Source: Candidatus Thiothrix anitrata
GTDB taxonomy: Bacteria > Pseudomonadota > Gammaproteobacteria > Thiotrichales > Thiotrichaceae
Length of the DNA stretch: 64,000 bases
Assembly: GCF_017901155.1 (NCBI RefSeq)
Contig: NZ_CP072800.1
Location: 957,283-1,021,282, forward strand
Direction: 5' to 3'
Shown: positions 44,806 to 59,163 of the stretch, piece after piece
Position numbering within the stretch: position 1 is the first letter of the stretch
How the letters are laid out: each line of letters starts with the position of its first letter
Made by a program: the position numbers and the translations under genes
The notes under the pieces: generated by a model
The model's input: only the letters and a program-made list of their open reading frames with translations
What the model was told of the DNA's origin: nothing
Databases searched by the model: none

Positions 44806-45999
44806 TTAGCCTCCTATGGCTTCAGCGGGATCAACTTTTAACGCGGCGCGAATCGCCATGACGCTCGCCAGCGTACACACCACCACGATCACCAGCAGCC
44901 CTAGCACGGCATCCAGCGGTAACAGCAAGACGTATTTGGGGAAAACAGGTGCCCACAAGGTCGCCACCGTTTTGCCGATAATGAAACCCACCAGCCCCAA
45001 GCCGAGGGATTCCTGCAAAATCATCCACGAAATCGTGCTATTGCGCGTGCCGATCAGCTTCAACACCGCAATTTCGCGGATTTTGCCCAGCGTCATGGTG
45101 TAGATAATGAACGACACAATCGCAGTGCTGACAATGGTAAGAATGACGAGAAACAACCCGATTTGCTTGGCGGACGTGGCAATCAGTTTTTTCACCGAAA
45201 TCTCTTCCATGTCGGCGTAGGTGTAGGCTTGCAAGTGTTTCCAGCGTTGGATGTCTGCCGCCAATTGTGCCGCATCCCACCCCGCTCGCACTTGCACCAG
45301 CACGGCATTGACGTTGTGGCTGGTGGTTTGGCTCATCTGCACCGCTTCCAGCAAACCCGGCACGTTGGGGCGGTTGAAAGCGGGGTTGGCGGCGGTACGT
45401 TCACGCCCGCTCACAATCGCGTCGTTGTCTTTCTGGAACTGCGCCGCCTGCGCATCCGCCAGCGGGATAAACACCATCGGGTCGCCGCCGGATGACACGG
45501 TGCGCTGGCTCAAGCCGACAATGGTGTATTCGTTGCGGCGAATGCGGATTTTTTCGCCCAGCTTGAAACCGGCTTTCACATCCGCCACGGCTTCGTAGTG
45601 CGAACGGGTCACGTGCCGACCGGCAATCAGCGACGGTGGCGCACCCGGTTGCCCCGACTCGAAACCGACTACCATGACGCGGGTATCCTTGCCCTGATGC
45701 TGCACTTGCATGGTGAAATAGGTGACATTGGCGGCCTGTTGCACCCCCGGCATTCCCAAAATGCTGCGGTACACATCGTCGGGCAGGCTGGACGATTCGG
45801 CGTAAGGCCCTTGGGTATCTTTTTGCACCACCCATACATCCGCCTGACTGTTGCGCAATAACACCTGCGCGTCGTCCACCATGCCGCGAAAAATCCCCGC
45901 CATCGACAGCGTGACCCCAATCAGCAAGCCCAAACCAATGCCGGTGAGGACGTATTTTGACCACGAATGCACAATGTCACGAGCGGCAAGGCTGATCAT
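44806..45999 (-). CDS. MacB/FtsX-like ABC transporter permease
   Basis: A 397-residue permease. One membrane helix at the N-terminus (VLTGIGLGLLIGVTLSMAG), a large periplasmic MacB_PCD-like domain (about 40-260), and a C-terminal FtsX domain with three helices (LFLVILTIVSTAIVSFII and so on). It overlaps the adaptor gene by four bases. With the ATPase and HlyD-type adaptor it would form a tripartite exporter; the outer-membrane channel is not in this window. Confidence 0.9.
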   Translation of the reverse strand: MISLAARDIVHSWSKYVLTGIGLGLLIGVTLSMAGIFRGMVDDAQVLLRNSQADVWVVQKDTQGPYAESSSLPDDVYRSILGMPGVQQAANVTYFTMQVQHQGKDTRVMVVGFESGQPGAPPSLIAGRHVTRSHYEAVADVKAGFKLGEKIRIRRNEYTIVGLSQRTVSSGGDPMVFIPLADAQAAQFQKDNDAIVSGRERTAANPAFNRPNVPGLLEAVQMSQTTSHNVNAVLVQVRAGWDAAQLAADIQRWKHLQAYTYADMEEISVKKLIATSAKQIGLFLVILTIVSTAIVSFIIYTMTLGKIREIAVLKLIGTRNSTISWMILQESLGLGLVGFIIGKTVATLWAPVFPKYVLLLPLDAVLGLLVIVVVCTLASVMAIRAALKVDPAEAIGG

Positions 46000-51958: not shown

Positions 51959-51988
51959 TGCATCCAACAGCCGCCAACCGACGTATAA
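51959..51988 (+). promoter_or_regulatory. Putative ECF promoter of the sigma/anti-sigma operon
   Basis: TGCATCC (51959-51965), a 16-base spacer and CGTATAA (51982-51988) lie 15 bases before the sigma gene. The same pair with identical spacing occurs before the DUF3047 gene at 53707. The layout is typical of ECF promoters, and autoregulation is usual for ECF sigma factors. Confidence 0.6.
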
Positions 51989-52003
51989 GAACATAGAAGG
52001 ATC

Positions 52004-52549
52004 ATGATGGAAGCACTGAACGAACTGTTGCAGCGCAGCGGTCAGGGTGATGCAACTGCTTTCCGGCAACTGTATGACGCGGCTTCCCCGCGCCTGTTCG
52101 CCCTATGCAAACGCCTGCTGCGGGATGAGGCACTCGCCGAAGATGTCTTGCAGGAAGGCTTTGTGAAAATTTGGCATCACGCCGCGCAATTTGCCGCCAG
52201 CAAAGCCAGTGCCATGACCTGGATGACCACGGTTGTGCGCAATCAGGCACTCGACAAACTGCGCCAAGGGCACAGCCGCCCGGCGATTGCTGGGGATGTG
52301 GAATACGAAACGCTGGAATTTGCCTCGCTTGAACCGGGGCCAGATGCCTTGCAACAAATGGGAGAAGATGCCCAACAATTGATGCACTGCTTGGAACAGC
52401 TTAAACCGGAACAGCGCGAATGCATCCTGCAAGCCTTCTATCACGGGCAAACTCATGAGGAGCTTGCCCACTCTTTGGCAAAACCGCTAGGCACAGTGAA
52501 AGCGTGGATACGGCGTGGATTGGAACAGTTAAGGGGGTGCTTGCAATGA
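52004..52549 (+). CDS. ECF-family RNA polymerase sigma factor
   Basis: A 181-residue ECF sigma factor. Region 2 spans about 15-85 (ATAFRQLYDAASPRLFALCKRLL, DEALAEDVLQEGFVKIW) and region 4 about 125-178 (LKPEQRECILQAFYHGQTHEELAHSLAKPLGTVKAWIRRGLEQL). It starts at 52004 or 52007, after AAGGAT. It overlaps the anti-sigma gene by ATGA. An own-motif promoter lies directly upstream. Confidence 0.93.
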   Translation: MMEALNELLQRSGQGDATAFRQLYDAASPRLFALCKRLLRDEALAEDVLQEGFVKIWHHAAQFAASKASAMTWMTTVVRNQALDKLRQGHSRPAIAGDVEYETLEFASLEPGPDALQQMGEDAQQLMHCLEQLKPEQRECILQAFYHGQTHEELAHSLAKPLGTVKAWIRRGLEQLRGCLQ

Positions 52550-53253
52550 GGCGTTACCAAAACCCGGACATTTTTGAACATTTGGCGATATCCTACGCAT
52601 TAGGCACTTTGCAGGGCAAGGCACGCCTGCGCTTTGAGAAATTGATGGGCAAACATCTTTACCTGCGGGCTGTTACCCATGCTTACCAGCAACAATTTGC
52701 CCCACTAGCCAACTTATTGCCAGCGGAACAACCACCGGCACGGGTGTGGAATGCCATCAGCAAGGAGTTGCAGTTAGGTAAAACCGCTGCCCCGCGCAAA
52801 AGCTGGCTGGCAAATGTGTGGAGCTATGTGCCGGTAGCCGCTTTTGCCTCGATTGCGGCATCGGTGGCGACGGTCTTGTTACTGAACCTTAGTAACCAGC
52901 CCAATGTTTACATGGCGAATATGAAAACCCCAATCCAGCAGGACAAAATGATGGTGGCGATGGTCTACCATGACACGATGGAAATAGCCTTCGACATGCC
53001 CGCTGGAGCATTGCCCATCAAAGATGACATGATGCCGACGGTATGGTGCATTCACAAAGACAGCGACAAGCCGCCTATGCGCATGGGTACACTGACCGCT
53101 AAAGGTGAAAATCGGATGCCAATCGATAAGGCAACTTGGAAGGAAATGGCGAATGTCAGCCAGTTTGCCATCAGCCTCGAACCGATGGATAAACCACCCA
53201 GCGATACCCCATTAGGCGAAGTCATTTTCAACGGCAAGCTTGCCGCGCTGTAG
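52546..53253 (+). CDS. RskA-like anti-sigma factor
   Basis: A 235-residue membrane anti-sigma factor. Residues about 1-60 are the cytoplasmic sigma-binding part (ISYALGTLQGKARLRFEKLM), one membrane helix lies near residues 92-112 (YVPVAAFASIAASVATVLLLNL), and the periplasmic RskA domain follows (MEIAFDMPAGALP). No zinc-binding HxxxCxxC is seen. The signal that releases the sigma factor is unknown. A hairpin follows the stop. Confidence 0.88.
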   Translation: MRRYQNPDIFEHLAISYALGTLQGKARLRFEKLMGKHLYLRAVTHAYQQQFAPLANLLPAEQPPARVWNAISKELQLGKTAAPRKSWLANVWSYVPVAAFASIAASVATVLLLNLSNQPNVYMANMKTPIQQDKMMVAMVYHDTMEIAFDMPAGALPIKDDMMPTVWCIHKDSDKPPMRMGTLTAKGENRMPIDKATWKEMANVSQFAISLEPMDKPPSDTPLGEVIFNGKLAAL

Positions 53254-53265
53254 GATAAACGCTGA

Positions 53266-53296
53266 CCGCTCTGGCAGGCTTGCCAGCGGCGGTTTT
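53266..53296 (+). terminator. Terminator-like hairpin after the anti-sigma gene
   Basis: CTGGCA-ggct-TGCCAG flanked by CCG/CGG is followed by a short TTTT. It would end the sigma operon. The T-run is short, so efficiency may be limited. Confidence 0.5.
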
Positions 53297-53328
53297 GCTA
53301 ATCAACCTCGAATGGCAAATACAAGCCG

Positions 53329-53580
53329 TTAATGGTCGATTCGCTTTAAATAAGCCACCCGAACTAATTTTAACAATAAGACAATCCAAGGCGTGGCATG
53401 AAACAGCAAATCAAAGATGTCGATCGGCTTGCTCAGTGTGCCTGCGCCGAGCATTTTTAACTTTTCCCACAAGTGTGGCTCAGGAACAAAGGGGGCTAAA
53501 CCAAGCGTCAGGGCGACCAGCAGTAGCAGGACAACAGGTATATTATCAATCAGGTGCAAAATTTTAGTCATCATAAGCAT
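53329..53580 (-). CDS. Small two-helix membrane protein
   Basis: An 83-residue protein with two hydrophobic stretches (IPVVLLLLVALTLGLAPF and DLLFHATPWIVLLLKLV) joined by PEPHLWEKLKMLGAGTLSKPIDIF. This small family is often annotated as an RND-transporter-related protein, but the name carries no known function. Several Met codons make the start uncertain (53580, 53574 or 53571). It is on the opposite strand to its neighbours. Confidence 0.65.
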   Translation of the reverse strand: MLMMTKILHLIDNIPVVLLLLVALTLGLAPFVPEPHLWEKLKMLGAGTLSKPIDIFDLLFHATPWIVLLLKLVRVAYLKRIDH

Positions 53581-53706
53581 CAAAAATCATAAAAATCCAA
53601 GAGGTCAGGCGCGATTTGACTCCATGTTCCACACAAGTCGCACACTGGGCATTATCTGCTGGGCATACTACCAAGATTCAAAACGGTCTTCATTACACGT
53701 TTGCGC

Positions 53707-53737
53707 TGCATCCAAACTAGCACCTGTGACGTATTAA
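53707..53737 (+). promoter_or_regulatory. Putative ECF promoter of the arsenosugar-type operon
   Basis: TGCATCC (53707-53713), a 16-base spacer and CGTATTAA (53730-53737) match the motif before the sigma gene. AGGAAGG precedes the ATG at 53768. This places the following genes in the ECF regulon. Confidence 0.6.
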
Positions 53738-53767: not shown

Positions 53768-54430
53768 ATGAACACATGGCAACGCAACGTATATAAAACA
53801 TTGATTATTTTAGGTGTTATGGCGAGCCACCCGCTAATGGCAGCAGACAATGTACCCGTGGGTGACTTTTCCCAACAGCAGCTTACTGACTGGAAACCAC
53901 AAGTGTTTAGCGGTAAGACCGCTTATGAATTCGAGCAACAAGGCAAGGAAACCGTGCTAACCGCTACCAGTCAAGCGAGTGCTTCTGGTTTGGTGCGCCG
54001 TATCCGTGTCGATTTACAGGCAACGCCTTTTCTGAATTGGTCATGGCAAATTCAAAATCAACTGCCCGACCTGAATGAGCAAACCAAAGCGGGCGATGAT
54101 TACGCCGCAAGGGTTTATGTGGTTGTTGATGGCGGTTTGCTAAAATGGAACAGTAAAGCCGTCAATTATGTCTGGGCAAGCAATACGCAGCGTGGTCAAA
54201 GCTGGGGCAATGCCTTTTTGCCGAATAATGCCAAAATGCTGGCGGTGCGTGGCACGCAAGATAAACCGCTGACCATGGTTAAGGAAAAGCGCAATGTCGC
54301 TGCCGATTTCAAACAGTTATTCGGCACTGAGGTGCGTTACATTGATGCGGTAGCGATTATGACCGATACCGATAACAGTAAAGGAGAGGCGCAAGCTGCT
54401 TACGGTGATATTTTCTTTTCCAGCAAATAA
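53768..54430 (+). CDS. Exported DUF3047 protein
   Basis: A 220-residue DUF3047 protein with an N-terminal signal peptide (TLIILGVMASHPLMA). The beta-rich body includes WSWQIQNQLPDLNEQTKAGDDYAARVYVV and the ending AYGDIFFSSK, both typical of the family. Function is unknown; it is predicted periplasmic. It is the first gene of the five-gene set and has the ECF-type promoter upstream. The next gene starts 25 bases later. Confidence 0.85.
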   Translation: MNTWQRNVYKTLIILGVMASHPLMAADNVPVGDFSQQQLTDWKPQVFSGKTAYEFEQQGKETVLTATSQASASGLVRRIRVDLQATPFLNWSWQIQNQLPDLNEQTKAGDDYAARVYVVVDGGLLKWNSKAVNYVWASNTQRGQSWGNAFLPNNAKMLAVRGTQDKPLTMVKEKRNVAADFKQLFGTEVRYIDAVAIMTDTDNSKGEAQAAYGDIFFSSK

Positions 54431-54455
54431 ACACTCATAATAAAAGGCTCACCCC

Positions 54456-56588
54456 ATGAACCAGAAAACCCTGCTCATTACGGCACTGCTTAGTGCTGTC
54501 GCTGCTTTTTTCATCTTTGATTTGCAGCAGTATTTTTCGCTGGATTACATTAAAGCCCAGCAGGCTGCCTTTGCTGCGCACTACGCGGCAAACACGGTCA
54601 GTACTTTGCTCATTTTTTTCGTGATCTACCTGGCAGTGACGGCTTTATCCCTGCCCGGTGCGGCGATTATGACGGTGCTGGCGGGGGCATTGTTTGGCTT
54701 GGTGACAGGGGTAATCATGGTGTCATTCGCCAGCACGCTCGGTGCTACGCTGGCTTTTCTGGTGTCGCGCTATGTATTGCGGGATAGTTTGCGTGCCCGC
54801 TACCCCGATAAATTGCAAGCCATTAACGCCGGTATTGCCAAAGAAGGGGCTTTATACCTGTTTGCGTTGCGCTTGGTTCCCCTATTCCCGTTTTTCCTGA
54901 TCAACTTGCTGATGGGGATTACTAACTTCCGTACTAGGACATTCTATTGGGTGAGCCAATTGGGGATGTTGGCGGGTACGATTGTGTATGTTTACGCCGG
55001 TACGCAGTTGGCACAATTGGACTCGTTGGCAGGGATTTTGTCACCCGGTATTATTGTTGCCTTCGTGTTATTAGGCACGTTCCCGCTAGTGGCGAAGAAA
55101 ATCATGGATCGGATTCGTGCCAATAAAATCCTTGCTCCATTTAATAAGCCGAAATCATTCGATAATAATCTGATTGTGATTGGGGCGGGTTCGGGCGGTT
55201 TGGTTTCTGCTTACATTGCCGCCGCAGTGAAAGCCAAAGTCACTTTAATTGAAAAACATAAAATGGGGGGCGATTGCTTAAACACCGGCTGTGTTCCCAG
55301 CAAGGCGTTAATTCGCACCGCCAAGGCATTGAGCGAAGCCAAGCATTCTGCACAATACGGCATTAAACGCATGGAAGCCGAATTTGATTTTGCTGAAGTC
55401 ATGGCACGGGTGAAACAGGTCATTAGCAAAATCGAACCGCATGATTCCATCGAGCGTTATACCGGCTTGGGGGTGAAGGTGATCGAAGGTGCGGCGCGGA
55501 TTATTGACCCTTACCGAGTTGAGGTGAATGGTGAGACGCTGACCACGCGCAATATCATTATCGCCACCGGAGCGCGACCACTGATTCCACCGATTAAGGG
55601 GTTGGACAGCGTAGACTACTTGACCAGTGATACGCTCTGGGCGTTGCAGGAACAACCCAGGCGCTTATTGGTGCTGGGCGGTGGGCCAATCGGTTGTGAG
55701 CTGGCACAGGCGTTTGCTCGCTTGGGCAGTCAAGTCACCTTGGTCGAAATGGCTCCGCAAATTTTGATTCGTGAAGATGATGAGGTTGCCGCGCAGGTAC
55801 GCCAACAGTTTGCAGCCGATGGCATCACGGTGTTGACCGGGCATAAAGCCTTGGAATTCCGCCGCGAAAAAGACCAGCAGCTCATGGTGTGTGAAGCGCA
55901 AGGGCAAACCAAACAACTGGTGTTCGATAAGGTGTTATTGGCGTTAGGGCGGCAAGCGAATGTGAGCGGCTTTGGTTTGGAAACCTTGGGGGTGGAGCTG
56001 ACCGCGCGCGGCACGGTGGCAGCCAATGAATTTCTGGCGACCAATTTCCCGAATATTCATGTGGTCGGTGATGTGACCGGCCCTTATCAATTTACCCATG
56101 TTGCCGCGCATCAGGCATGGTTTGCCAGTGTGAATGCCTTGTTCGGCAGTGTGAAACGTTTCAAGGTGGATTATCGGGTAATTCCTTGGGCGACGTTTAC
56201 TGACCCGGAAGTGGCACGGGTCGGCTTAAATGAAAAAGAGGCAACACAGCAGGGCATTGCTTATGAAGTCACCACCTACGGTATTGATGATTTGGATCGA
56301 GCCATTGCCGACAGTGCTGATCATGGTTTGGTGAAAGTCCTCACCGTACCGGGGAAGGATACGATTCTTGGGGTCACGATCATGGGCAAGGGTGCGGGGG
56401 ATTTAATCCCAGAGTTTGTACTGGCGATGAAATACAAACTCGGTCTGAATAAAATTCTCGGCACGATTCATATTTACCCGACCATGAGTGAAGCCAATAA
56501 ATACGCGGCAGGGAACTGGAAGCGGGCACATGCCCCCGCAACGGTGCTGAACTGGCTGGAAAAATTCCATACTTGGAGAAGACATTAA
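54456..56588 (+). CDS. TVP38/TMEM64 membrane domain fused to a disulfide reductase
   Basis: A 710-residue fusion. Residues about 1-215 form a TVP38/TMEM64 (DedA-like) membrane domain (SLPGAAIMTVLAGALFG, LFALRLVPLFPFFLINLLMG). Residues about 230-700 are a pyridine nucleotide-disulfide oxidoreductase: FAD motif VIGAGSGGLVSAY, redox pair C274-C279 (GGDCLNTGCVPS), NAD motif LVLGGGPIGCELA and dimerisation end HIYPTMSEANKYAAG. It resembles mercuric reductase without its N-terminal metal domain or C-terminal CC. It may reduce a substrate at the membrane. Confidence 0.88.
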   Translation: MNQKTLLITALLSAVAAFFIFDLQQYFSLDYIKAQQAAFAAHYAANTVSTLLIFFVIYLAVTALSLPGAAIMTVLAGALFGLVTGVIMVSFASTLGATLAFLVSRYVLRDSLRARYPDKLQAINAGIAKEGALYLFALRLVPLFPFFLINLLMGITNFRTRTFYWVSQLGMLAGTIVYVYAGTQLAQLDSLAGILSPGIIVAFVLLGTFPLVAKKIMDRIRANKILAPFNKPKSFDNNLIVIGAGSGGLVSAYIAAAVKAKVTLIEKHKMGGDCLNTGCVPSKALIRTAKALSEAKHSAQYGIKRMEAEFDFAEVMARVKQVISKIEPHDSIERYTGLGVKVIEGAARIIDPYRVEVNGETLTTRNIIIATGARPLIPPIKGLDSVDYLTSDTLWALQEQPRRLLVLGGGPIGCELAQAFARLGSQVTLVEMAPQILIREDDEVAAQVRQQFAADGITVLTGHKALEFRREKDQQLMVCEAQGQTKQLVFDKVLLALGRQANVSGFGLETLGVELTARGTVAANEFLATNFPNIHVVGDVTGPYQFTHVAAHQAWFASVNALFGSVKRFKVDYRVIPWATFTDPEVARVGLNEKEATQQGIAYEVTTYGIDDLDRAIADSADHGLVKVLTVPGKDTILGVTIMGKGAGDLIPEFVLAMKYKLGLNKILGTIHIYPTMSEANKYAAGNWKRAHAPATVLNWLEKFHTWRRH

Positions 56589-57548
56589 ATGCAACCGAAT
56601 GCTTTTGCACAACGCTTAGCGGCAGAAAATCTGCCATTAAAACGCCCCAACATCACCACGCTGCAAGTGAATATTGGCAAACGTTGCAATCAGGCTTGCC
56701 ACCATTGCCATGTCGAGGCAGGCCCCAAACACCCCGACAATATGGCATTGCCCACCTTGGAACGTTTGTTGGATTTATTGCTTACCGCACCGGCTGTACA
56801 CACCGTGGATATTACCGGCGGCGCACCGGAATTGAATCCGCATTTTCGTTATTTTGTGTCTGAAATCCGCAAGCTGGGGCGCAAGGTCATCGACCGTTGC
56901 AATCTGACGGTGTTGTATGAAGAAGGTCAGGAAGATACGGCTGAATTTCTGGCACAACAAGGGGTAGAGATTGTGGCATCGCTGCCCTGCTATACCAAAG
57001 AAAACGTGGAAGCGCAGCGCGGGCGTTTTGTTTTCGATAAAAGCATTCAGGGCTTACGGCTACTGAATAGCTTGGGTTACGGTAAAGCAGGCAGTGGTCT
57101 GGTGTTGAATCTGGTGTATAACCCCGGCGGTCATTTCCTGCCACCGGATCAACATGCCTTGCAGCATGACTACAAACAGCGTCTGCTGGATGACTTTGGC
57201 ATTGAATTTAATCAGTTGTTTACCATTACCAATATGCCAATCAAACGCTACCGCCATGTATTGGAACGTGATGGTGAGTTGGCGGCGTATATGCAGTTAT
57301 TGTTGGATAATTTTAACCTGAGCGCGGCACAGGGGGTCATGTGTACGAACCTAATTTCGGTCGGTTTTGACGGGCAAATTTATGATTGTGATTTTAACCA
57401 AATGCTGGAAATGCCGGTATCTGGGCAGGCGCGTCAGGTGATGGATATTAGCCATCTGGATGAGATTACCCAGGATATTGTGGTGGCGAATCATTGCTTT
57501 GGTTGTACGGCGGGCGCGGGGAGTTCCTGCGGTGGGTCGTTGCTTTGA
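56589..57548 (+). CDS. arsS: ArsS-like radical SAM protein
   Basis: A 319-residue radical SAM enzyme. The [4Fe-4S] motif is C-x3-C-x2-C (CNQACHHC near residue 33), followed by TGGAPE. The C-terminal region holds cysteines of an auxiliary cluster (GVMCTNL, YDCDF, CFGCTAGAGSSC). This matches the arsenosugar biosynthesis radical SAM protein ArsS, which acts after arsenic methylation. The start directly follows the fusion gene's stop. Neighbours are two TIGR04282/04283 glycosyltransferases usual for this pathway. No ArsM methyltransferase is visible in this window. Confidence 0.87.
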   Translation: MQPNAFAQRLAAENLPLKRPNITTLQVNIGKRCNQACHHCHVEAGPKHPDNMALPTLERLLDLLLTAPAVHTVDITGGAPELNPHFRYFVSEIRKLGRKVIDRCNLTVLYEEGQEDTAEFLAQQGVEIVASLPCYTKENVEAQRGRFVFDKSIQGLRLLNSLGYGKAGSGLVLNLVYNPGGHFLPPDQHALQHDYKQRLLDDFGIEFNQLFTITNMPIKRYRHVLERDGELAAYMQLLLDNFNLSAAQGVMCTNLISVGFDGQIYDCDFNQMLEMPVSGQARQVMDISHLDEITQDIVVANHCFGCTAGAGSSCGGSLL

Positions 57549-58273
57549 TGTCAATGGGCAAGCTATCCATCATCATACCGCTAGCCCCCGCTGATACGAG
57601 CTGGCAGGTGTTGCTGGAAGATCTGGCAGCATTGGCAGCGCAAGCGACGTTAACGGATAGTGAAATCCTGTTCCTGGCGGCGGCTGCGTCCGACTTGACG
57701 GCGATCAACCAGCAGTTAAGTGCTTATTCGACCACCTTGCAGCAGCAAGTTCGCACGGTGCAGGCGGGGCATAGCCGCGCCACCGCGATGAATGCGGGGG
57801 CAAGTGTGGCGCAGGGCGAATACCTGTGGTTTGTTCATGCCGATTCACGCTTGCAAGTGCAGCATGTGGCTTCCCTGCTGAAGTCGATGCAACGCTTTCC
57901 CCAAGCCTTGCATTATTTCAACTTGCGCTTTTATGGTCATCCGCTGATGGGATTAAACGCCATCGGGGTGTGGATACGCTCGCACTGGCTGCGTAATCCG
58001 TTTGGTGATCAGGCACTGTGTCTGCGACAACAAGATTTTATCCGCATCGGTGCTTATCCCGAAGATGTGCGCATGGGCGAAGATCATGTGCTGGTTTGGC
58101 ACGCCTTGCAGCAGGGGATGCAACTCAAATGTACCGGCACGGCACTCCTGACCAGCGCCCGCAAGTACGCGCAACACGGCTGGCTGAAAACCACCGCACT
58201 GCACGTTTCCCTCTGGGCAAAACAGGCATGGCCAGAATTTAAGACGCTGTTAAAACAACGCCGCCGGACATAA
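57548..58273 (+). CDS. TIGR04283-type family 2 glycosyltransferase
   Basis: A 241-residue GT-A glycosyltransferase. The N-terminus KLSIIIPLAPADT is the nucleotide fold, and FVHADSRLQ supplies the DxD-like pair; FGDQALCLRQQDF and MGEDHVLVWHAL follow. This subfamily is typically next to ArsS. The start at 57548 shares one base with the arsS stop; 57554 is an alternative. The sugar donor and acceptor are unknown. Confidence 0.85.
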   Translation: MSMGKLSIIIPLAPADTSWQVLLEDLAALAAQATLTDSEILFLAAAASDLTAINQQLSAYSTTLQQQVRTVQAGHSRATAMNAGASVAQGEYLWFVHADSRLQVQHVASLLKSMQRFPQALHYFNLRFYGHPLMGLNAIGVWIRSHWLRNPFGDQALCLRQQDFIRIGAYPEDVRMGEDHVLVWHALQQGMQLKCTGTALLTSARKYAQHGWLKTTALHVSLWAKQAWPEFKTLLKQRRRT

Positions 58274-58303: not shown

Positions 58304-58437
58304 ACTCCGAACCCTCCCCCCCATCCCCAACCCTTCCCCCGCAAGGGGTGAAGGGAGCAAGAATGATACGAACCAAGTATCTTGTCCCCTCCACCCCTTG
58401 CGGGGGGAGGGTTAGGGAGGGGGGGTAAGTTCGGAGT
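58304..58437. repeat. Family B inverted repeat between the two glycosyltransferase genes
   Basis: Outer arms ACTCCGAAC / GTTCGGAGT and inner C-rich/G-rich arms with CCCGCAAGGGG-type cores form a long imperfect hairpin across the 209-base gap. It could end transcription or act as a mobile palindrome. The rest of the gap shows nothing else. Confidence 0.8.
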
Positions 58438-58482: not shown

Positions 58483-59163
58483 ATGAAAGTTGCCATTGCT
58501 GTTTTCGTGAAAACCCCCGACCTGTCACCGGTCAAGACCCGGCTGGCAGCCACTTTGGGGCGGGTGCAAGCCGACACTTTTTTTCAGTTGGCGAAAGCGG
58601 CGAATGAAGCGTTGTTGGCGCAGGCAGTACCCGATTTTGCGGCGCAGGGGATCAGCTTATCCGCTTATTGGGCAGTCGGTGAACAGCAGGGACTGGCGCA
58701 TCCGCTGTGGCAAAGCCGTTTCATGCAACGCTTACATACCGGTGAGGGTGGGCTGGGTGAGCGTATGCATCAGGTGTACAGCACACTGTTACACACGCAT
58801 GATGCGGTGCTGTTGGTGGGGATGGATAGCCCACAGAATTCGGTGAGTAATTTGCGGGATGCCGCACAATGCTTGTGCCAACCGCAGTGCTTAGTGATTG
58901 GGCCAGCACGGGATGGTGGCTTTTATTTGTTTGGTGGCAATACGCCCGTGCCACTTAGCCGCTGGACAGCCGTGCAATACGGTCAGGACGACACGTTGCA
59001 ACAGTGGGTAGCGGCATTGCACGGTTATGACATCCATTACTTGAATGCCATGACCGATGTGGATACCGAAGCTAATCTGCACCCGATGGTGGCTGAGATG
59101 CAGGGCGAGTTATTGCCGGAGCAGTTGGCGTTGCTGGCGTTTGTGCAAGGCTTATCACGCTAG
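58483..59163 (+). CDS. TIGR04282-type glycosyltransferase (DUF2064)
   Basis: A 226-residue nucleotidyltransferase-fold glycosyltransferase. The N-terminus MKVAIAVFVKTPDLSPVKTRLA is the DUF2064/TIGR04282 start, and LLVGMDSPQ plus GPARDGGFYLFG supply the active-site blocks. It normally works with the TIGR04283 enzyme. A family B repeat separates it from the upstream partner. It is the last gene of the set. Confidence 0.87.
   Translation: MKVAIAVFVKTPDLSPVKTRLAATLGRVQADTFFQLAKAANEALLAQAVPDFAAQGISLSAYWAVGEQQGLAHPLWQSRFMQRLHTGEGGLGERMHQVYSTLLHTHDAVLLVGMDSPQNSVSNLRDAAQCLCQPQCLVIGPARDGGFYLFGGNTPVPLSRWTAVQYGQDDTLQQWVAALHGYDIHYLNAMTDVDTEANLHPMVAEMQGELLPEQLALLAFVQGLSR

Follow-up and report, generated by a model that had tools for sequence, protein, structure and literature searches.

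A shared promoter motif and a methionine-rich anti-sigma factor point to a putative envelope copper and oxidant regulon in Candidatus Thiothrix anitrata

Genes and promoter motifs in the window

A stretch of 64,000 nucleotides of the Candidatus Thiothrix anitrata chromosome (contig NZ_CP072800.1, positions 957,283 to 1,021,282; here called the window) contains the gene of a SigK-like extracytoplasmic function (ECF) sigma factor, the gene of an RskA-type anti-sigma factor that overlaps it, and, downstream of both, an operon that encodes a DUF3047 protein, a VTT-domain FAD disulphide reductase (VTT-FAD reductase), an ArsS-family radical SAM protein and a glycosyltransferase-like protein (Table 1). 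A sequence-only reading had noted that the sigma gene and the DUF3047 gene are preceded by the same motif with the same 16-base spacing, and this was confirmed. The two sites have the form TGCATCC-N16-CGTAT(AA) and TGCATCC-N16-CGTAT(TAA), respectively; the spacers are both 16 bases long and differ in sequence. The gapped pattern TGCATCC-N16-CGTAT occurs twice in the window compared to 0.04 occurrences expected from 100 shuffled sequences, none of which contained two. The distance from the end of CGTA to the called start is 21 nt for the sigma gene (second ATG, 52007) and 34 nt for the DUF3047 gene. A position matrix trained solely on the sigma promoters of other genomes (11 distinct N16 sites) ranks the two sites first and second in the window with 29.5 and 29.2 bits, followed by a site at 44908 within an opposite-strand gene (19.4 bits) and a fourth at 11.1 bits. 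The maximum over 20 shuffles was 21.8 bits, and none of them reached 29.2. Scans for Sigma-70 promoters and terminators gave results at the shuffle level.

Table 1. Features of the sigma factor locus and the adjacent operon (positions in the window)
Feature	Position	Strand	Evidence and remarks
Sigma-gene promoter	51959-51986	+	TGCATCCAACAGCCGCCAACCGACGTAT
ECF sigma factor, SigK-like, 181 amino acids	52004..52549	+	sequence profiles; PDB match SigK 4NQW
RskA-type anti-sigma factor	52546..53253	+	PF10099 36.9 bits, cut-off 29.4; start overlaps sigma stop (ATGA)
DUF3047-operon promoter	53707-53734	+	TGCATCCAAACTAGCACCTGTGACGTAT
DUF3047 protein, 220 amino acids, signal peptide by eye	53768..54430	+	PF11249 187.4 bits, cut-off 27
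VTT (TVP38-type) membrane domain fused to MerA/lipoamide-dehydrogenase-like FAD disulphide reductase, 710 amino acids	54456..56588	+	PF09335, PF07992, PF02852
ArsS-family radical SAM protein, 319 amino acids	56589..57548	+	TIGR04167 438.7 bits, cut-off 300; start abuts reductase stop
TIGR04283-like glycosyltransferase, 241 amino acids	57548..58273	+	148.7 bits, under cut-off 182; start overlaps ArsS stop
Inverted repeat, 46-nt arms, 17 nt between	58317..58425	.	between operon and TIGR04282-like gene
TIGR04282-like (DUF2064) protein	58483..59163	+	115.8 bits, under cut-off 134; PF09837 66.5 bits

Sites in the own genome and in congeneric genomes

For the genome-wide counts we used the exact pattern TGCATCCA-N15-CGTA. 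A site was counted as promoter-placed if it lay 15–110 nt before a called start in the right direction, each site being assessed within the genome that carries it. Gene calls came from a simple script, not from a gene finder, and target labels from the beginnings of the proteins; for the BufA, MNIO, DUF2063, DoxX, thioredoxin, MsrP-type, DsbD and DsbC proteins and for the FAD oxidase, one example each was checked against Pfam. The own genome contains seven exact sites, six of them promoter-placed and the seventh intragenic. The six precede the sigma gene, the DUF3047 gene, an MNIO gene with a DUF2063-like partner, a DUF2282/MNIO/DUF2063/DoxX bufferin operon, the MsrP-MsrQ genes and the gene of a periplasmic thioredoxin. 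In the bufferin operon, at 1037 kb, the domains PF10048, PF05114 and PF09836 were found. At the other bufferin locus, at 1029 kb, PF05114 was found and the DUF2063-like gene was recognized by eye; a TGCATCT variant of the motif precedes a gene for a DGSCGAKK-repeat peptide opposite the MNIO gene.

Random placement of the motif had been set beforehand as the alternative against which it was to be judged, and the sites do not bear it out. Over a background of 108 kb from the own genome, made up of the window and four loci, about 5% of positions would count as promoter-placed, compared with six of seven exact sites in the own genome (p about 1e-7). The 16 congeneric genomes together contain 78 exact sites, of which 66 are promoter-placed, and not one occurrence of the reversed pattern. 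Since sites common to related species are not independent, only the count from the own genome can be read as a probability. The genes most often preceded by a promoter-placed site are those of MsrP (14 of the 16 genomes), EGKCG/bufferin-type proteins (9), the sigma factor (7), BufA (6) and an FAD/CFA operon (6), followed by MNIO (4), thioredoxin (4, with a fifth, in G005, recognized by eye), DsbC (3), DsbD (2), DoxX (1), DUF3047 (1) and others (6). In the FAD/CFA operon, which accounts for six congeners (loci L135, L176, L177, L184, L320 and L352), the motif lies 36–38 nt before an FAD amine-oxidase-like gene; in L135 and L184 the next gene was read as CFA-type. With the exact pattern, no such case was found in the own genome.

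Sites before DUF3047 genes in other genera

DUF3047 genes occur in 14 of 60 genomes of the family Thiotrichaceae and in 91 of 321 genomes of the class. The 420 nt before each domain were searched with one regular expression and no gene calls, so that loci at contig ends may read slightly off. A motif-like site in the correct direction precedes DUF3047 at 9 of 15 family loci compared with 1 of 30 class loci, only the best-scoring 30 being included (p 5e-5); with the own genome left out, the family count is 8 of 14 (p 1.3e-4). On either strand sites are present at 11 of the 15 family loci, and in two of these the site points to the VTT-FAD gene. Control genes of the same loci have the motif in 3 of 32 cases in the family and 1 of 59 in the class. 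These sites indicate that the promoter type goes with DUF3047/VTT-FAD genes within Thiotrichaceae, also beyond the loci adjacent to a sigma gene. A class-wide link was rejected, the single hit among the best-scoring 30 loci being a weak match, CGATCC, in L295. At two loci (L168 5158-5193 and L169 5270-5305) two overlapping, opposed motifs lie between the DUF3047 and FAD reductase genes, a near-palindromic stretch that may serve both directions.

The sigma factor and the anti-sigma factor

Sigma-70 regions 2 and 4 were detected in the sigma factor, and its nearest relative of solved structure is SigK (4NQW, E 6.8e-28). In the alignment to 4NQW, two of its cysteines pair with SigK cysteines that lie near the places of the C133/C183 pair of Mycobacterium tuberculosis (PMC7509140); the first of the two is a tyrosine in the relative L130. 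The nearest named sigma loci belong to Thiothrix and encode proteins 85–92% identical to the window sigma factor. By regular expression, the motif or a variant of it is found upstream of the sigma gene at 16 of the 19 closest named loci and at 2 of the 61 others, one of them from Rheinheimera and one from Polaromonas. A close variant with CGTT precedes many Pseudoalteromonas sigma loci (by eye; in L214 by pattern). In L214 and L238 a motif likewise stands before the neighbouring gene, which is of the DUF4331 type, with PF14224 detected in L214.

In L112 (8105-8644) and L119 (11800-12339) a paralogous sigma gene, 71–72% identical and with an anti-sigma gene of its own, has no upstream motif and is followed by a spondin-like/MBL pair that does have it. 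Loci L114-L117, on a 151 kb contig (G013:C1), carry a second copy of the sigma and anti-sigma genes; bufferin, DoxX, thioredoxin/CcdA-like and DUF302 genes lie there as well, close to the same motif. The contig is separate and has genes that by eye look conjugation-like, so that the regulon may move with a plasmid.

The anti-sigma factor has an RskA_C domain and one predicted transmembrane segment, behind which lies a methionine-rich domain. Methionine makes up 14 of the 122 residues (11.5%) of the domain behind the membrane segment, compared with 2.1% of the N-terminal part and 2.3% of the window proteins. When 415 proteins of the sampled loci were ranked by the methionine content of any 122-residue stretch, anti-sigma factors held 10 of the top 12 places, outscored only by two small membrane proteins. 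Across family loci the methionine content of the domain ranges from 4.9 to 15%, and in the RskA proteins of Pseudoalteromonas and Rhodobacteraceae it is mostly near 1%, with a few at 2.5–4.2%. The RskA_C profile (PF10099) scores 31.6–37.7 bits in four methionine-rich relatives tested and 69.0 and 73.8 in two methionine-poor ones (cut-off 29.4). Among the closest named loci and the window, M145, C168 and M180 are invariant (19 of 19 rows) and M162 is present in 18 of 19; methionine-poor RskA rows mostly have methionine at the position of C168 and leucine at that of M180. In the predicted structure, the part from about residue 121 onward is a beta domain modelled with confidence (block means 83–96). 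Weak fold matches of the model (C2-domain, Cu,Zn-SOD and fibronectin-like; all E > 0.03) were not used, and searching the PDB sequences with a profile of the anti-sigma factor returned nothing useful. Convergent with the anti-sigma gene lies a minus-strand gene (53329-53580) for an unassigned small membrane protein of 83 amino acids.

The DUF3047/VTT-FAD/ArsS operon

The four genes from 53768 to 58273 are separated by gaps of at most 25 nt, the reductase gene beginning 25 nt past the DUF3047 gene. The inverted repeat that follows may end the transcript. It is long and C/G-rich, and its arm matches nowhere else in the window at up to three mismatches. Whether the TIGR04282-like gene behind the repeat belongs to the operon is uncertain.

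Which factor reads the motif

Of the 16 congeneric genomes, 13 encode an orthologue of the sigma factor with at least 53% identity. All 13 contain the motif, compared with one of the three genomes that have no orthologue (Fisher p 0.025): G002 and G011 lack the motif, and G003 has it. The own genome encodes seven Sigma70_r2 proteins, read as RpoD, RpoS, RpoH, RpoE and three further ECF sigma factors, and the motif lies within the preceding 70 nt only for the ECF gene of the window. The sequence-only reading had proposed autoregulation of the sigma factor together with control of the DUF3047/VTT-FAD reductase/ArsS/glycosyltransferase operon; judged from the sequence evidence, both are probable. 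More broadly, we consider it probable that TGCATCC-N16-CGTA promoters define a copper/oxidant regulon of the envelope that is governed by a rewired pair of a SigK-like ECF sigma factor and an RskA-type anti-sigma factor.

Several observations weigh against this conclusion. Twelve of the 78 exact sites are not promoter-placed; several are intragenic, and one, in G001, precedes a truncated-looking thioredoxin gene. By regular expression the motif is present before just 18 of the 80 named sigma loci, all but two of them among the closest 19. Some sigma genes have a non-exact motif, TGAATCC in G004 and G005 and CACATCC and AGCATCC in G007 and G010. No motif was seen before the paralogous sigma genes of G012/G014, nor before the sigma orthologue of G046, where no anti-sigma gene was called either. 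Two of the family's DUF3047 sites are TGATCC variants. In the genus, DUF3047 was found in 1 of 13 sampled genomes and ArsS over the cut-off in 1 of 16, in both cases the own genome only; since no other sampled congener has the operon, its membership rests on one Thiothrix site together with the DUF3047 sites in other genera. The methionine enrichment of the anti-sigma domain drops to about 5–9% outside Thiothrix, and methionine-rich RskA proteins also occur outside the family, at seven loci with 5.2–8.7%. These seven lack the C168/M180 set, and home-made profiles detected no bufferin or Msr neighbours within 6 kb of them. The structural model of the anti-sigma factor has an overall pTM of 0.51 and no PDB fold match with E <= 0.001.

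The motif may also be real but have another reader, either a different ECF sigma factor or a group of them whose specificities overlap. The genome G003 speaks for this: the motif precedes msrP, a bufferin-type gene and the FAD/CFA operon there, and a close orthologue of the sigma factor is missing (best E 1.4e-23). At L178 (4399-5456) the same genome encodes another ECF sigma factor with a partner that looks cupin-like, beside a gene with a DUF4331-like protein start (both by eye), and the promoters there resemble CAATCC-N17-CGTATTA, which is near the SigK-type motif. This other sigma factor may read a related motif, so that the motif would not be strictly private and overlapping specificity is possible, a further point against an exclusive assignment. 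The TGATCC-N16-CGTA sites at two DUF3047 genes of the family point the same way. Against such a reading stand the seven sigma genes of the own genome, among which only the window ECF is preceded by the motif, and the motif or a variant of it before most close orthologues; we regard it as unlikely.

A role of the sigma factor as an arsenic sensor, with arsenosugars as the product of the ArsS operon, is less likely still. The operon owes its arsenosugar label to the ArsS family assignment and to two glycosyltransferase-type matches (TIGR04282/04283), and the former is over its cut-off, but both of the latter are under theirs. The window gene shares its ArsS family membership with the known arsenosugar gene sets (TIGR04167/04282/04283), which it differs from in the company of a fused VTT-FAD reductase, a DUF3047 gene and an ECF promoter, and in the absence of an ArsM-type methyltransferase over cut-off anywhere in the genome (best 65 bits, cut-off 263, with the model NF008823, which we take to be that for ArsM). 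Other methyltransferases could act in place of ArsM. The remaining motif targets are, however, copper, methionine sulfoxide and thiol genes, and of the 15 other congeners 13 carry the motif and none an ArsS gene over the cut-off. The missing ArsM and this company of the motif weaken the arsenic reading. Of the organoarsenic or redox response that had been suggested from the sequence, the redox part fits and the organoarsenic part is unsupported: the motif stands before bufferin, MsrPQ, Dsb and thioredoxin genes, and 14 of the 16 congeneric genomes have it compared with one that has ArsS over the cut-off. In the open-licence literature we found nothing joining an ECF sigma factor and arsenosugars, which is weak evidence of absence.

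Finally, that the 53707 site is a chance or local-duplication copy of the sigma promoter with no regulatory meaning, as the 1.7 kb between the two sites might suggest, is highly improbable given their different spacers, a score reached by none of the 20 shuffles, and family genomes with motif-like DUF3047 sites and no sigma gene in the stretch seen.

Comparison with known sigma/anti-sigma systems

The published systems are compared here on the basis of parts of the cited papers. The closest parallel in terms of target genes is Caulobacter crescentus SigF-NrsF (ECF16). Copper induces SigF, whose targets comprise DUF2282, DUF692 and DoxX genes, a further DUF692 cluster, MsrPQ and the operon of SigF itself; disruption of SigF leads to copper sensitivity (PMC8224329). 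Bufferins (DUF2282/DUF692), DoxX, MsrPQ and the sigma operon are thus targets in both cases, assigned in Thiothrix by promoter motif only. The two systems differ in the anti-sigma factor (RskA-type here, NrsF there), in the promoter, (T/C)GTAAC-N17-CGAA for ECF16 (PMC8315932) compared with TGCATCC-N16-CGTA here (no scan for GTAAC...CGAA was made), and in the additional DUF3047/VTT-FAD/ArsS, Dsb and thioredoxin genes of Thiothrix; DUF3047, the VTT-FAD reductase and ArsS are absent from the viewed part of the SigF table (PMC8224329). Bufferin clusters with sigma and NrsF genes have been described (PMC12452194). In the 60 family genomes NrsF was not found over the cut-off, with one sub-threshold match (G023) and a positive Caulobacter control. 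Taken together, targets that match SigF-like (ECF16) regulons and the lack of NrsF indicate a known kind of regulon with another sigma/anti-sigma type and another promoter. The sequence-only reading had described the response as not known as an ECF regulon, which holds only in part: most of this gene set corresponds to the copper regulon of Caulobacter SigF (PMC8224329), and what sets it apart is the sigma/anti-sigma pair.

Methionine sulfoxide reductases are also among the targets of two SigF-like, oxidant-responsive systems, Bradyrhizobium EcfF-OsrA, which in addition controls a DsbD-like protein and a thioredoxin (PMC3420878), and Brucella BcrS-AbcS, in which BcrS controls HOCl-induced MsrPQ homologues (PMC8315932). 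These differ from the Thiothrix system in a DUF1109 anti-sigma factor (stated for OsrA) and an ECF16-type promoter, and neither ArsS nor DUF3047 is mentioned in the passages on them. Mycobacterium SigK-RskA, of the ECF18/ECF19 families, resembles the window pair in the sigma sequence, the cysteine pair and the RskA_C domain and differs in its targets, MPT70/MPT83 (PMC7509140), and in the methionine-rich periplasmic domain, with C168 and M180, found here. The SigK-RskA pairs next to DUF4331 genes in Pseudoalteromonas and Rheinheimera have, upstream of the sigma gene and of the gene beside it, a promoter that closely resembles the one found here (L214, L238), and differ in that DUF4331 neighbour and in a methionine-poor RskA (about 1% methionine). 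Neisseria sigma-E (DoxX, MsrAB; PMC2893595) was dismissed as a parallel in view of its different -35 and -10 elements, and a copper-responsive ECF sigma factor of Acinetobacter has another promoter and other targets (PMC12153292). Among the titles listed as matches in the open-licence literature, no RskA-type case of a methionine-rich, copper-linked anti-sigma factor was found, again weak evidence of absence. As far as searched, the features that appear to be new are the sigma/anti-sigma type running the regulon, the methionine-rich anti-sigma domain, and the membership of the DUF3047/VTT-FAD/ArsS genes.

Proposed mechanism and significance

These results lead us to propose that the membrane-bound RskA-type anti-sigma factor would hold the SigK-like sigma factor inactive, and that this sigma factor would read TGCATCC-N16-CGTA promoters. 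In the own genome the regulon would comprise the sigma operon, the DUF3047-VTT/FAD reductase-ArsS-glycosyltransferase operon, two loci for bufferins (copper-binding peptides), MsrPQ and the periplasmic thioredoxin. Its products would bind copper and repair methionine and thiols, and MsrPQ, a periplasmic methionine-sulfoxide repair system, could reset the anti-sigma sensor. The DUF3047/ArsS operon would act as an envelope redox module: with the same promoter before genes for copper-binding peptides and envelope repair, the "arsenosugar" genes more likely belong to a copper or oxidation response than to an arsenic response. The signal, the chemistry of its sensing and the reading of the sites by the sigma factor are what we infer from these sequence features, and direct Cu(I) binding or methionine oxidation by the anti-sigma factor is proposed in the same sense.

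A more far-reaching scenario can be put forward tentatively, as a possibility that we would not yet favor. It is conceivable that in Thiotrichaceae SigK/RskA took over a copper/methionine sulfoxide regulon of the SigF/NrsF type, and that the anti-sigma factor was rebuilt as a direct sensor of Cu(I) or methionine oxidation (M145, M162, C168, M180 and the methionine-rich periplasmic beta domain), to be reset by MsrPQ. ArsS, DUF3047 and the VTT-FAD reductase would then serve in envelope copper and thiol protection and not in arsenosugar synthesis.

The regulon proposed here would offer a testable case of one stress regulon, combining copper-binding peptides and methionine-sulfoxide repair, that is placed under different sigma/anti-sigma types depending on the bacterium. 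It also suggests in concrete terms how an RskA-type anti-sigma factor might act as a sensor, and would place DUF3047, the VTT-FAD reductases and the "arsenosugar" radical SAM protein in the context of a stress that is not arsenic.

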